From positions 3,844,001 to 3,908,000 of the forward strand of contig NZ_JAGVRK010000001.1 in assembly GCF_018283675.1 (NCBI RefSeq): a stretch of DNA of 64,000 nucleotides, in the 5' to 3' direction. The stretch comes from Metabacillus flavus. GTDB taxonomy: Bacteria; Bacillota; Bacilli; Bacillales; Bacillaceae. The notes below the pieces were generated by a model, which was given only the letters and a program-made list of their open reading frames with translations, had not been told where the DNA came from and searched no databases. Position numbers and translations under genes: made by a program. Shown in pieces: positions 2,880-38,718 of the stretch; position 1 is the stretch's first letter, and every line of letters starts with the position of its first letter.

Positions 2880-4070
2880 TTAGTTAAATACTGATGCCGC
2901 CCATTCAGGGTGGTCAATGAATGGATTGCGGTTATGCTGATAATCGCTGTAAATGACGTCATTGCGGTGGCGTTCCCAATCGCTGACAGGATCCTGCTGA
3001 TGCCATTGCAGAAGAACGGATTTTTTGCCCATGTAAGGAGCAGATCCATTGTTCACACTCTCATTCAGCTCAAGATTCGGTTCGCCGCTGTCGCCTTCAT
3101 AACGGACAGCCATGTAAAAGATCATACGTGCTACATCACCTTTAACTTCGTCGCGAGGCTCCCATGAGTCGCTGTCGAAATAGTTTCCAAGTGCTTCTGA
3201 GTGCTGGGATCCGCCGTTATCAAAATCCAGGTTTCCTCTTGAACTATTTACGGAAACGTCTGTCGGACGAAGATGATGAATATCTGTTCCCGGTCCCATT
3301 GCTGTTCCGAAATCACCATGTGATTTTGCCCAAACATGTTCCCGGTTCCAATCATCTGGATTTCCGCCGTTTGTCAGCTTGCTCTGTGAACGTCCTGTAT
3401 ATAATAGAATGACATTATTTGAGTTAAGCGGGTCTTCATCAGTATGGCGCAATGCATCCCATACTGCGTCGTAAGAAAGCTCCGTGTGGTCATCGATAAT
3501 ATTGTGCAAAGCAGATTTTAGTGAAGCTCCTGTTTTACCAATGGCCGGATTGTAGTATGTGCCGTCATAAGGAGACGGAGTCGTTGTTCCGCCGCCGTCA
3601 GAGCCGCCGCCATCATCTGGAGGGACGGTCCCGCCTGCTTTTTCCATTTGAACAGGGTTTTTTAATCCTGCATGGGAAAAATAAGCAGATAGGCTGCCTG
3701 TTGCTTTAATTGCCTGGCCTTTTAAAGAAGGATTAGACTGAAGGCCGAACGTACTGCGGTAAGAAGTGGAAAGCTGAACATAAATCATATTGGCCGGGTT
3801 TGTTTCGCTTGGAGAATCCGCCAATGCCACTGCATAATCATTTGGATAGCTGCTCGTTATAACAGTCGTAGCTGCAGTGGGCTGTCCCACTACATAACCT
3901 TGAACAGTTTTGGAAGAACCATTTTGATTGCTGATTGCCTGTGAAACAGAGAATGGGCTTGCCCAAGTACCGCTTCCAGTGACGGCTTCAGTTTGTGCAG
4001 GCGCCAGCATGGAAAGGATGAAAATTAAGACAAAAGATAGCGAGATGATTGGCTTTACTCTTTTTTTCAA
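2880..4070 (-). CDS. Secreted endonuclease I-family nuclease
   Basis: Extracellular DNA/RNA-degrading enzyme. The best start is TTG at 4070, with AGGAGG seven bases upstream; an ATG at 4115 lacks a site. The product begins with a Sec signal peptide (LKKR, hydrophobic stretch, likely cut after QTEA). Residues about 30-150 form an OB-fold-like nucleic-acid-binding module (motif GYVVGQ), then a Gly/Asp/Ser-rich linker (PPDDGGGSDGGG), then an endonuclease I domain. The catalytic segment shows NREHVWAKSHGDFG and DIHHLRPTD, matching the HNH/beta-beta-alpha metal centre of endonuclease I and of Bacillus YurI/BsnI-type nucleases. Stands alone, convergent with yerO. Confidence 0.85.
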   Translation of the reverse strand: MKKRVKPIISLSFVLIFILSMLAPAQTEAVTGSGTWASPFSVSQAISNQNGSSKTVQGYVVGQPTAATTVITSSYPNDYAVALADSPSETNPANMIYVQLSTSYRSTFGLQSNPSLKGQAIKATGSLSAYFSHAGLKNPVQMEKAGGTVPPDDGGGSDGGGTTTPSPYDGTYYNPAIGKTGASLKSALHNIIDDHTELSYDAVWDALRHTDEDPLNSNNVILLYTGRSQSKLTNGGNPDDWNREHVWAKSHGDFGTAMGPGTDIHHLRPTDVSVNSSRGNLDFDNGGSQHSEALGNYFDSDSWEPRDEVKGDVARMIFYMAVRYEGDSGEPNLELNESVNNGSAPYMGKKSVLLQWHQQDPVSDWERHRNDVIYSDYQHNRNPFIDHPEWAASVFN

Positions 4071-4265
4071 GGTCGTTCCTCCTGAGATTATGTTCTCCCT
4101 GTATCCAATCGCCAAAGTTTTTCTCTTTTTCTAGTATTTTTCATTTCTATTATTTCTCTTTTCTAAATGGAGCCACAAGTTCCAATAGTAGCAATCCACT
4201 CAAGGCTAATGTCCCGGATTTGCAGAGACTGTCGAAGATGATATGAAAATGAGGAAAAGACAGAA

Positions 4266-36607: not shown

Positions 36608-36632
36608 TGAGTTGAAATCTCTAAATTAAAAA

Positions 36633-36656
36633 GGCTCCCATCATGGGAGCCTTATT
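36633..36656. terminator. Bidirectional terminator between dehydrogenase and parR-like gene
   Basis: Perfect stem GGCTCCCA (36633-36640) / TGGGAGCC (36644-36651), A-run before and T-rich after; it ends both convergent units. Confidence 0.85.
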
Positions 36657-37242
36657 TATTCATACTCGACAGGAAATCTCCAAGAAGATCCTCTGCGCTC
36701 TCTTCCTTTTCTTCCTCAGGTTCTTGATTTCGAATCTGGTCTTGCATTTGATCGAAGCTGAAGCTTTCCAGATCATCATCTCCGGAATCTGCATCTTCAA
36801 AGGAATATTCTTCAGCAGGAACGGCCTTAATTTCAGGCTCCTCCTGTTCCAGCGCTGCCCCTGTCTGATCCTCAAACATAATCAGTTCATCAGGATCCAG
36901 CGTATGGCTGTTCATTGAGGCAAGAAGCGCAGTCGCTCTCACCGGATTGGCAAGCAGCTGATGAATCATACTTCCGAGAAGAGCTTCTGAATGCTCATGC
37001 TTCAGCCAGTTTCTTTGTTCCTTCGTAAGCTGGCGGGGAAGGGGGATTGTAAGAGTTTGCCTTTCTTTAGAGAGGGATTCGCTCACTCCCTTCATGACAA
37101 ACTCTCCAATTCTGCTGGAAAAATTGCGCTTTTCCATTTCCTTCAGCTTTGATAGCTGTTTCAGAAGGTGATCGGGAGTATCAGAGGGGACCCTGAACGT
37201 GATCGCCTGGCCCCGCTCAATACGTTTATCCGACGGTTTCAT
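36652..37242 (-). CDS. ParR-like DNA-binding adaptor (RHH fold)
   Basis: 196 residues, probably the centromere-binding adaptor of a type II partition system. Residues about 12-52 (QAITFRVPSD, LLKQLSKLKEMEKRNFSSRI) fit a ribbon-helix-helix DNA-binding unit. The middle region is helical (LTKEQRNWLKHEHSEALLGS). The last 60 residues are very acidic (SFEDADSGDDDLESF, EPEEEKEESAEDLL), as expected of a tail contacting a filament. Starts 12 bp after the ParM-like gene with AAGGTGATG upstream, so the two are one operon. The name rests on fold reading and context, not on recognisable identity. Confidence 0.65.
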   Translation of the reverse strand: MKPSDKRIERGQAITFRVPSDTPDHLLKQLSKLKEMEKRNFSSRIGEFVMKGVSESLSKERQTLTIPLPRQLTKEQRNWLKHEHSEALLGSMIHQLLANPVRATALLASMNSHTLDPDELIMFEDQTGAALEQEEPEIKAVPAEEYSFEDADSGDDDLESFSFDQMQDQIRNQEPEEEKEESAEDLLGDFLSSMNK

Positions 37243-37254
37243 CTAGTCATCACC

Positions 37255-38439
37255 TTATTTGGATGAGGAAGCCGGCTGCTTTTCATCCTTTTTTTCTGGT
37301 TTAGCTGTTTTGCGGACAAAATCCGAAATCAGTTTGTAGTAAGCATTGGACATCATCCAGATGCTTTCTTTTTCATCTTCAAAAAACTCAATATTATAGC
37401 CATCAAGATTGTTATTGAGCGCTTTGAGGTAATCCTTCAATACAGATGCCCCGCCTCCTACAAAGTAGCAGATCTCCGTTTGAGAATTGCGCTGCCAAAC
37501 ATTGCGCAGGAAGCGATATTGTTTCTTCGCTAATTCTAAAAGAATACGGTCTGTAATATCATGTACGCTTGTACGGCTTCCTTTTACCATGATGTGGTTG
37601 CGGTCATTCTTGCGGGTGATGATTTCAACCACGTCTCTGCGGCTATCAAGCTCCACACCATGCTTCGTAAGAATTTCTTCTCTGATTGCCTCAAGAGATT
37701 CTGAAACTCCCAAGTTAAAACCTTGCGCTTTATCATCATCCACATTACGGTTGCGGATTACAGCGATATCTGTCGAAAGCCCGCCGATGTCCTGGATGAG
37801 GATCCGCTTATCAATCAAATCTTTATTAATAATGTTCAAGTCATTATCCATGACAAGATTAACGTACGCTGCAAATCCCTCCGGATAAACTTTCACTTCA
37901 TCAAACTTGATATTAACTTTCAGTCCTTGATACTTCGGTGTTACCAGGAATTCTACTTGATGAACAGAACCAAGCAGCTGGGAGCGGTACCCGACATCTT
38001 TTCCTTCTTTTACTTCTCTCAAAGGAAGACCGGTTCCAAGCGTATAATTTGCATCAATTACCTGATTGTTTTTCTTAAAGCCTTTTTCCACTGTGCCGTT
38101 AACTGCATCAAGAGCTAATGAAGCAAACAGCATAACAAGCGTCTGATCCTCTTCGGATTTGCTGCTTCCAGGGTCCAGCTCCGTGGAATTATTGCTCTTC
38201 GCAGCAAGGCTTCCTACTCGATAAATTACGTTGTTTTCTTTCAGGGCAGGGGAGTGCACACGGATGTGAATGTTCTCCAGAGGGTCTTTTTCGTTTAATT
38301 CTTCAATTCCAATAACCGGACGATCTTCTAAATCTCTTGCAATCACATTTGGTATGTATAGTTCTGAGTCTAGTTTTCCGAACAATGCTTTAACTGCGTC
38401 ATTCCCGACATCGACTGCTGCAATTCTAGAAAGATTCAT
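37255..38439 (-). CDS. ParM-like actin-family ATPase
   Basis: 394-residue actin-like ATPase of the ParM/StbA/Alp group, which forms dynamic filaments that push plasmid copies apart. The actin motifs are present: phosphate 1 (IAAVDVGNDAVKALF, Asp 10), phosphate 2 (ILIQDIGGLSTDIAVI, Asp 217) and adenosine motif (CYFVGGGASVLKDYL, about 328-331). A charged tail (KPEKKDEKQPASSSK) ends the protein. The frame extends to 38478, but ATG 38439 follows GAAGGGAAAG and starts the family N-terminus. Downstream is a ParR-like gene; upstream are iterons. No plasmid replication gene lies within the window. Confidence 0.85.
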   Translation of the reverse strand: MNLSRIAAVDVGNDAVKALFGKLDSELYIPNVIARDLEDRPVIGIEELNEKDPLENIHIRVHSPALKENNVIYRVGSLAAKSNNSTELDPGSSKSEEDQTLVMLFASLALDAVNGTVEKGFKKNNQVIDANYTLGTGLPLREVKEGKDVGYRSQLLGSVHQVEFLVTPKYQGLKVNIKFDEVKVYPEGFAAYVNLVMDNDLNIINKDLIDKRILIQDIGGLSTDIAVIRNRNVDDDKAQGFNLGVSESLEAIREEILTKHGVELDSRRDVVEIITRKNDRNHIMVKGSRTSVHDITDRILLELAKKQYRFLRNVWQRNSQTEICYFVGGGASVLKDYLKALNNNLDGYNIEFFEDEKESIWMMSNAYYKLISDFVRKTAKPEKKDEKQPASSSK

Positions 38440-38552
38440 AGTCAACTTTCCCTTCTTCATTAAAGTTCCATATACCATTCGCTTACATGGTCTACTTTAA
38501 AGGTAATACATAAAAGGCTTTCTTTCAATACAGGTTTTAACGTTTTCATTTT

Positions 38553-38705
38553 TGTGTACATGCATACTTTTCCGTATACAATTCTACTTATTTTGTAAAC
38601 AAGTATACTTTATTGTACACATACTGTTAAATCAACATGTATACCTCTTTGTTTACATGTATACAATAAAGTACACAAAAGAAAACACTTTGTATACAAG
38701 TAAAC
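38553..38705. repeat. parC-like iteron array upstream of the ParM-like gene
   Basis: Four 15-bp copies of TGTNNACAWGYAWAC: TGTGTACATGCATAC (38553), TGTAAACAAGTATAC (38594), TGTTTACATGTATAC (38650) and TGTATACAAGTAAAC (38691), spaced 41, 56 and 41 bp. Half-sites occur at 38635-38644 and 38711-38718. The array covers the probable parM promoter, so it could serve both as centromere and as operator for autoregulation. Confidence 0.75.
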
Positions 38706-38718
38706 AATAGTGTAAACA

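Follow-up and report, generated by a model that had tools for sequence, protein, structure and literature searches.

A chromosomal ParMRC-like module with a centromere-like array on the left side of the replication origin in Bacillales

The window, which is the whole stretch of 64,000 nucleotides of Metabacillus flavus DNA analysed here, lies within a 4,026,853-bp contig that bears dnaA, and the chromosomal setting proposed by the first-pass annotation was thus confirmed. The module in this study consists of the following features:

36631..36653, no strand, bidirectional terminator-like hairpin 3' of the ParR-like gene (pattern match only)
36652..37242, minus strand, ParR-like partner of 196 aa, named by its operon position (family match none)
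37255..38439, minus strand, ParM/Alp7A-type actin-like ATPase of 394 aa (Pfam, PHROG 691, PDB ParM profile, invariant residues)
38554..38717, no strand, parC-like array of 12 GTNNAC palindromes upstream of the ATPase (site count)
38621..38638, minus strand, asymmetric 18-bp centre of the array, ATGTTGATTTAACAGTAT on the minus strand, a weaker feature (consensus of relatives)

The coordinates of the two genes and the 12-bp spacing between them agreed with those first proposed, and homologues of the ATPase also begin at the chosen start, 38439, while the frame itself opens at 38478. The neighbours (DUF2252, a Gfo/Idh-type oxidoreductase, pepT, and cyd genes) were all found as annotated. The first-pass annotation had seen no rep, mobilisation, or integrase gene. 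The family scan, which took in 23 of the 32 ORFs that reach 280 aa in the window (the ATPase among them) and a few shorter ones, matched none either. The scan also showed a DUF6359 domain fused to an Endonuclease I domain at 2880-4115 of the window.

The type II partition systems ParMRC of plasmid R1 and Alp7AR of Bacillus consist of an actin-type ATPase, a small adaptor, and iterated sites upstream of the operon. The ATPase of the window matched the Pfam family Alp7A_like_C (PF22128) at 8.5e-38, and its matches to ALP_N (PF17989) and MreB-like_C (PF21522) were also above the Pfam cut-offs, while the match to ParM_N (PF21523) was exactly at the cut-off. PHROG 691, 'partition protein', matched it at 5.9e-40, and the profile of its alignment matched the ParM sequences of the PDB, at best at 6.9e-29. 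By Pfam and the PDB ParM profile, it belongs to the ParM-clan actin-like ATPases, as does the ATPase of ParMRC type II systems. In 27 aligned chromosomal and plasmid sequences, the residues D10, G12, N13, D217-I218-G219-G220, D224, and G328-G329-G330 were invariant. Structure prediction of both proteins, which had been proposed as a check, gave weak models, and that of the ATPase (pLDDT 46, shallow alignment) was set aside. The median identity of ParM was 83% in 26 genomes, compared with 73% for the neighbouring PepT (15 genomes) and 63.5% for the RlmI-like protein (20 genomes), although some of the control matches spilled slightly into the adjoining part of the joined query, so that their identity may be lowered. 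ParM was the more conserved protein in every common genome (15/15 against PepT and 20/20 against the RlmI-like protein). This indicates that the ATPase is under strong constraint.

The module is widely distributed in the order. Among 60 relatives, the ATPase was matched in 30 genomes and the partner in 27; 27 of the 30 ATPase matches were orthologues at 79-100% identity and 3 were distant only. Of the 299 genomes that made up the sample of the order, 150 had an ATPase orthologue, with listed identities of 75-100%. The search of 398 genomes across the phylum gave 5 ATPase matches at 1e-30, all from the window's own order, which is seemingly sparse in that sample. The loci used for comparison were the named ones that matched best, 80 of 419 relatives, and the ATPase and partner occurred together in all 80. 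The partner gene began 5-19 bp downstream of the ATPase in 80/80, and the two genes putatively form a common operon. Synteny across relatives had also been suggested as a check: the gene pair was kept throughout, but the immediate neighbours were not. The pair itself aside, no neighbour cluster in the flanks of 8 kb, some of which were shorter, was shared by more than 20 of the 80 loci. Judging from this distribution, the module is not a local plasmid relic. Since half of the sampled species do not have it, it is dispensable. In a midpoint-rooted gene tree of 53 of the best 80 loci, in which some organism names may be wrong, seven multi-member genera were monophyletic (Halobacillus with support of 40 only), whereas six genus labels, including Metabacillus, were not, and clean vertical inheritance was not borne out.

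The partner had been described as a ribbon-helix-helix protein with a very acidic tail. The tail was clear, with 29 D/E versus 4 K/R in residues 116-196. The fold is putative: in the AlphaFold model (mean pLDDT 62), an extended stretch is followed by two helices, at 24-36 and 41-59, and this helix order fits, but the strand was absent in the monomer, a Foldseek search with this model found nothing, and there was no convincing family match in Pfam, NCBIfam, PHROGs, or the PDB sequences. The ribbon-helix-helix assignment of the N-terminal region, residues about 10-59, is therefore a reading of the model and not a result. An alignment of 35 sequences showed N-terminal invariants R10-G11-Q12, F16-R17, P19-S20-D21, and R39-N40-F41-S42. 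The second conserved region, about 62-111, contained a conserved block from P69 to R102 in the same alignment, and it was followed by the acidic variable tail and then by a conserved C-terminal motif, G.F...MN, which was found in 76 of the 80 best-matching named loci.

The first-pass annotation had proposed four 15-bp iterons upstream of the ATPase. The repeats are real, but they were parsed wrongly: the four direct repeats of 31 nt, spaced 41/56/41, reflect a higher-order periodicity within a denser array, in which 12 GTNNAC palindromes lie within about 165 bp (38554-38717) with start-to-start spacings of 20, 21, 8, 12, 24, 12, 8, 12, 21, 8, and 12. Away from the array, no 170-bp stretch had more than 3 GTNNAC. 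In the 180 bp upstream of the ATPase, 79 of the 80 best-matching named loci had at least 5 GTNNAC and 65 had at least 8 (median 10), compared with 2 of 1600 shuffled sequences with at least 5. The commonest spacings in the relatives were 8 and 12, followed by 20, 11, 21, 13, and 24. The iterated upstream centromere of ParMRC type II systems thus has a counterpart here in the putative parC-like array. The exception was Halobacillus hunanensis (L082), in which the gene pair is kept and the array is almost absent. Several other Halobacillus loci likewise kept the gene pair with a thin GTNNAC array, and the recognition motif may have shifted in these loci and L082.

The array has a non-palindromic 18-bp centre between two hexamers, with the majority sequence ATGTTGNTNTANAGGGAT in the relatives. 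Candidates for it were present in 74 of the 80 loci, picked by similarity to a trial consensus. At least 14 of 18 positions matched the consensus, which was itself derived from these loci, in 36 of the 80 loci, compared with 3 of 800 shuffles; the centre in the window itself scored 13/18. Five of the 80 loci (L076, L077, L084, L097, and L103), mostly from Cytobacillus-type genomes, plus Metabacillus bambusae, have a further GTNNAC array, which lies 1.2-1.5 kb upstream and so not next to the start codon of the ATPase. The idea that these duplicate arrays keep the 18-bp centre was not supported, as their best scores, 11-13/18, were within the reach of shuffles.

The composite motif GTNNACN2GTNNACN6GTNNAC was used to search whole genomes. 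In the genome of the window, it had four matches, all inside the array. In 37 further module-bearing genomes, 85 of 87 matches were within 1.2 kb upstream of the ATPase, and the two strays were in G044 and G086. At least one match at the locus was found in 33 of the 37 genomes; of the other four, G135, G198, and G236 had no match and G044 only its stray. There was no match in 7 genomes without the module. The control, the composite pattern read backwards, gave 44 matches in 44 genomes; since about one chance match per genome is unsurprising, the two strays mean little. The array motif is almost restricted to the locus.

The position of the module in the chromosome was then compared. We placed dnaA in 12 + 27 genomes, and all of these 39 except G018 have the module. 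The 38 are near-complete, comprising the module-bearing genomes with at most 3 contigs plus G026 with 4, and they span 15 family labels. In 38 of 38, the module was on the dnaA contig, the ATPase was 34-258 kb to the left of dnaA (median 91 kb), and it was on the strand opposite to dnaA, transcribed away from the origin. A conserved gene pair of some other function might simply keep its ancestral place, without a functional link to the origin. As position controls, we looked for five other proteins encoded in the window in 26 of the 38 genomes. Two were usable. Orthologues of the RlmI-like protein were found in 20 genomes (59-85% identity) and those of PepT in 15 (67-93% identity), and 11/20 and 9/15, respectively, were within 300 kb to the left of dnaA. 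The other three were left out of the count: DUF2252 had one close match and another at 45%, the best Gfo/Idh match (47%) was of unclear orthology, and most CydA matches were paralogues at about 30%, with five at 44-62%. With a limit of 500 kb, the counts were 11/20 and 11/15, together 22/35, so that the zone is fairly stable, which speaks for mere inertia. However, within 300 kb ParM was found in 26/26 genomes and the two controls together in 20/35 (Fisher P 5e-5, for related genomes without phylogenetic correction, a limit chosen after the range of ParM was seen, and two usable controls). The module was in place in 38/38 overall despite exchanged flanking genes, and the position was kept even though the gene tree would allow for some replacement from one genus to another. 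We consider it quite unlikely that inertia is the whole explanation.

The nearest relatives of the module outside chromosomes are on plasmids. The ATPase matched 84 of 72,556 plasmid records, all at less than 60% identity and at best about 44% for a near-complete match, and the partner matched 16, within residues 4-106; there was no match of the ATPase in phage records. The sister parMR operons are carried by, for example, Bacillus methanolicus pBM69 and plasmids of Paenibacillus polymyxa, Peribacillus, Niallia, and B. subtilis. They share with the module the order parM-parR and an ATPase that is 41-43% identical by alignment and up to 44% by tblastn, and in 6 of the 7 operons inspected by eye they have GTATAC- or GCATAC-type hexamers near parM. 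In contrast, their partners in the seven operons, encoded directly behind parM, are of 134-151 aa and do not have the long acidic tail of the chromosomal partner, which resembles the short ParR of the sisters over residues 4-106 only. Their hexamers are few, and most of them lie no more than about 200 bp from the start codon, compared with about ten sites in the chromosomal array. By eye, the plasmid loci L145, L146, L148, L150, and L151 had apparent GCATAC/GTATGC variants, and L150 had a TTTGCAAA-like motif; these variants suggest diverging ParR specificities. In two genomes, a plasmid-type parM (44%) and short parR homologues were on separate contigs (G017:C14:5748-7195 and G028:C3:8274-9721). 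Because both genomes also hold the orthologue, the chromosomal and plasmid-like forms of ParM can coexist.

The gene order, the Alp7A-type ATPase, the array, and the plasmid sisters at 41-44% identity all support the proposal of the first-pass annotation that this is a ParMRC-like chromosomal module domesticated from a plasmid-type one. This kinship raises another explanation, that the cargo is extrachromosomal, either a resident plasmid or incoming plasmids on which the module acts in trans. The closest non-chromosomal relatives are indeed plasmid operons, 3 of the 7 inspected with a replication or primase gene nearby, and the plasmid arrays use related hexamers near parM. However, the full array is on the chromosome, the plasmid records gave only the distant matches above and the phage records none for the ATPase, and selection would have to last across genera without a common plasmid. 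We regard this explanation as very unlikely. Whereas ParMRC type II systems are carried by plasmids, the location on the dnaA contig in 38/38 genomes makes this module a chromosomal variant.

The array directly adjoins its own operon, and cis-autoregulation is thus possible, which counts against a role in partition. On this account, the partner would bind the array just to regulate its own operon, and the role of the filaments would lie in shape, polarity, or some other process. Strict sigma-A-like matches were found in 27 of the 80 best-matching upstream regions (shuffle mean 7.9), all at -100 to -61, just downstream of the array, as would suit such control in the loci that have them. A promoter in the array centre had one 10/12 match in the window and was inconsistent by eye across eight relatives. 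On the other hand, a median of 10 sites per 180 bp with recurring spacings seems, in our judgement, beyond the need of an operator, five loci have the second array 1.2-1.5 kb upstream, and the position to the left of the origin is left unexplained. We believe that autoregulation alone is unlikely. As to sporulation promoters, there was no SigH-type match in the 80 upstream regions. Spo0A-box matches occurred in 9 of them (shuffle mean 2.7; with a loose box 16, mean 7.4) and SigF/G-like matches in 49 (shuffle mean 5.8), and this excess is taken as a putative by-product of the GTNNAC array. The sigma-A-like matches argue against purely sporulation-specific expression.

The first-pass annotation had named a chromosome region, an unseen extrachromosomal element, and a non-partition process as candidate targets. 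The conservation across the lineage, the fixed position to the left of the origin, and the near-restriction of the array to the locus favour the chromosome as the target. We believe that the module is probably a chromosomal type II, actin-based partition system, whose putative centromere marks the region to the left of the origin. The ParR-like protein would bind the parC-like GTNNAC array, and its conserved C-terminus, carried on the long acidic linker, would hold the ends of ParM-type filaments. In plasmid ParMRC, array-bound adaptors present C-terminal motifs to the ends of ParM filaments. Filament growth or capture driven by ATP may then shift the array or keep it in place. Given that the array is found 34-258 kb to the left of the origin and hardly anywhere else, the predicted cargo is the origin-left region of each sister chromosome; in this respect, the module differs from R1 ParMRC and Alp7AR, whose cargo is the plasmid, and it has one origin-left site on the chromosome. 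The module would work beside the ParABS/RacA machinery of the host, not replacing either. Several results count against this reading: the structure models were weak, the partner matched no DNA-binding family, half of the sampled species do without the module, the gene tree is not cleanly vertical, and the composite motif or the array is missing at the locus in a few cases (four of 37 genomes, and L082).

We speculated that the filaments capture or push the origin-left region through the origin-proximal centromere, chiefly to place this region at the pole for sporulation, and we hold this more specific proposal only tentatively. RacA is not known to be an actin system, and it uses multiple sites, whereas the present module has one array to the left of the origin. 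The RacA sites of B. subtilis are mainly in the 250 kbp to the left of oriC, and the centre of the DNA segment trapped in the prespore is slightly to the left of oriC (PMC4949633). Polar anchoring by RacA and ram resembles the present case in having a DNA-binding protein with sites to the left of oriC, in a zone that overlaps the position of the module (PMC4949633, PMC9564211). It is chiefly because of this overlap that we tentatively prefer origin capture or separation to other roles.

The distribution of the module gives only a hint of a link to sporulation. spoIVA was found in 287 of 299 genomes, and the module was in 150 of the 287 genomes with spoIVA and in 0 of the 12 without. Within families, the counts with and without spoIVA were 9/9 and 0/2 (f7), 6/10 and 0/1 (f14), 3/4 and 0/6 (f26), and 0/8 and 0/3 (f36). 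The association had a crude P of 2e-4 and a family-stratified P of 3e-4 at the level of genomes, and a P of about 0.04 by genera in the three informative families. Because the independent lineages are few and spoIVA is absent only from small genomes of 2.5-3.8 Mb, the link is suggestive only. The RacA model likewise matched 0 of these 12 genomes, as expected for a sporulation gene. The possibility that the module replaces RacA was not supported: in a rough test with one of four subfamily models and matches of all strengths down to 1e-5, RacA-model matches and ParM were uncorrelated (100/50/95/54, P 0.63), and the genome of the window has both. Its RacA-like gene is outside the window, at G000:C1:3765068-3765367. 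The eight genomes above the cut-off of the RacA model, all of one genus, do not have the module.

Actin-like ParM systems move plasmids, and a 2009 survey of actin-like proteins may list the present family. Chromosome-encoded ParMs (cParMR) have already been published for Desulfitobacterium, Clostridium botulinum, Moorella, and Bacillus tropicus, and according to that paper Bt-cParM is kept on several Bacillus chromosomes and such ParMs may do more than partition plasmids (PMC12270681). The present module resembles them in having a chromosomal actin-like ParM with an adjoining ParR. In its main text, searched for 'origin' and 'oriC', an origin-proximal position is not reported, and in the sections consulted an order-wide distribution, an acidic-tailed ParR, or a GTNNAC array is not described, the comparison being with the published description of Bt-cParM1/2 (PMC12270681). 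A literature search of titles and abstract openings, with thin coverage of subscription papers, brought up no chromosomal parMRC described as close to the origin in Bacillales. What is new here, as far as this search goes, is the position to the left of the origin.

We conclude that the module is, as far as its sequence tells, real and conserved, and that it is a variant of the type II partition systems that resides on the chromosome, with a centromere-like site to the left of the origin; the mechanism proposed for it is well posed. Such a module, conserved and with its array close to the origin, occurs in about half of the sampled Bacillales and is a direct and testable candidate. Should the partition reading hold, an actin-type spindle would serve the chromosome of bacteria themselves, and the accepted view of how the origin is placed in this order, based on RacA and Soj/Spo0J, would miss a component that is present in many species. 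If the sporulation reading is also true, about half of the Bacillales species sampled would have in the module a third route of origin capture next to RacA and Soj/Spo0J.
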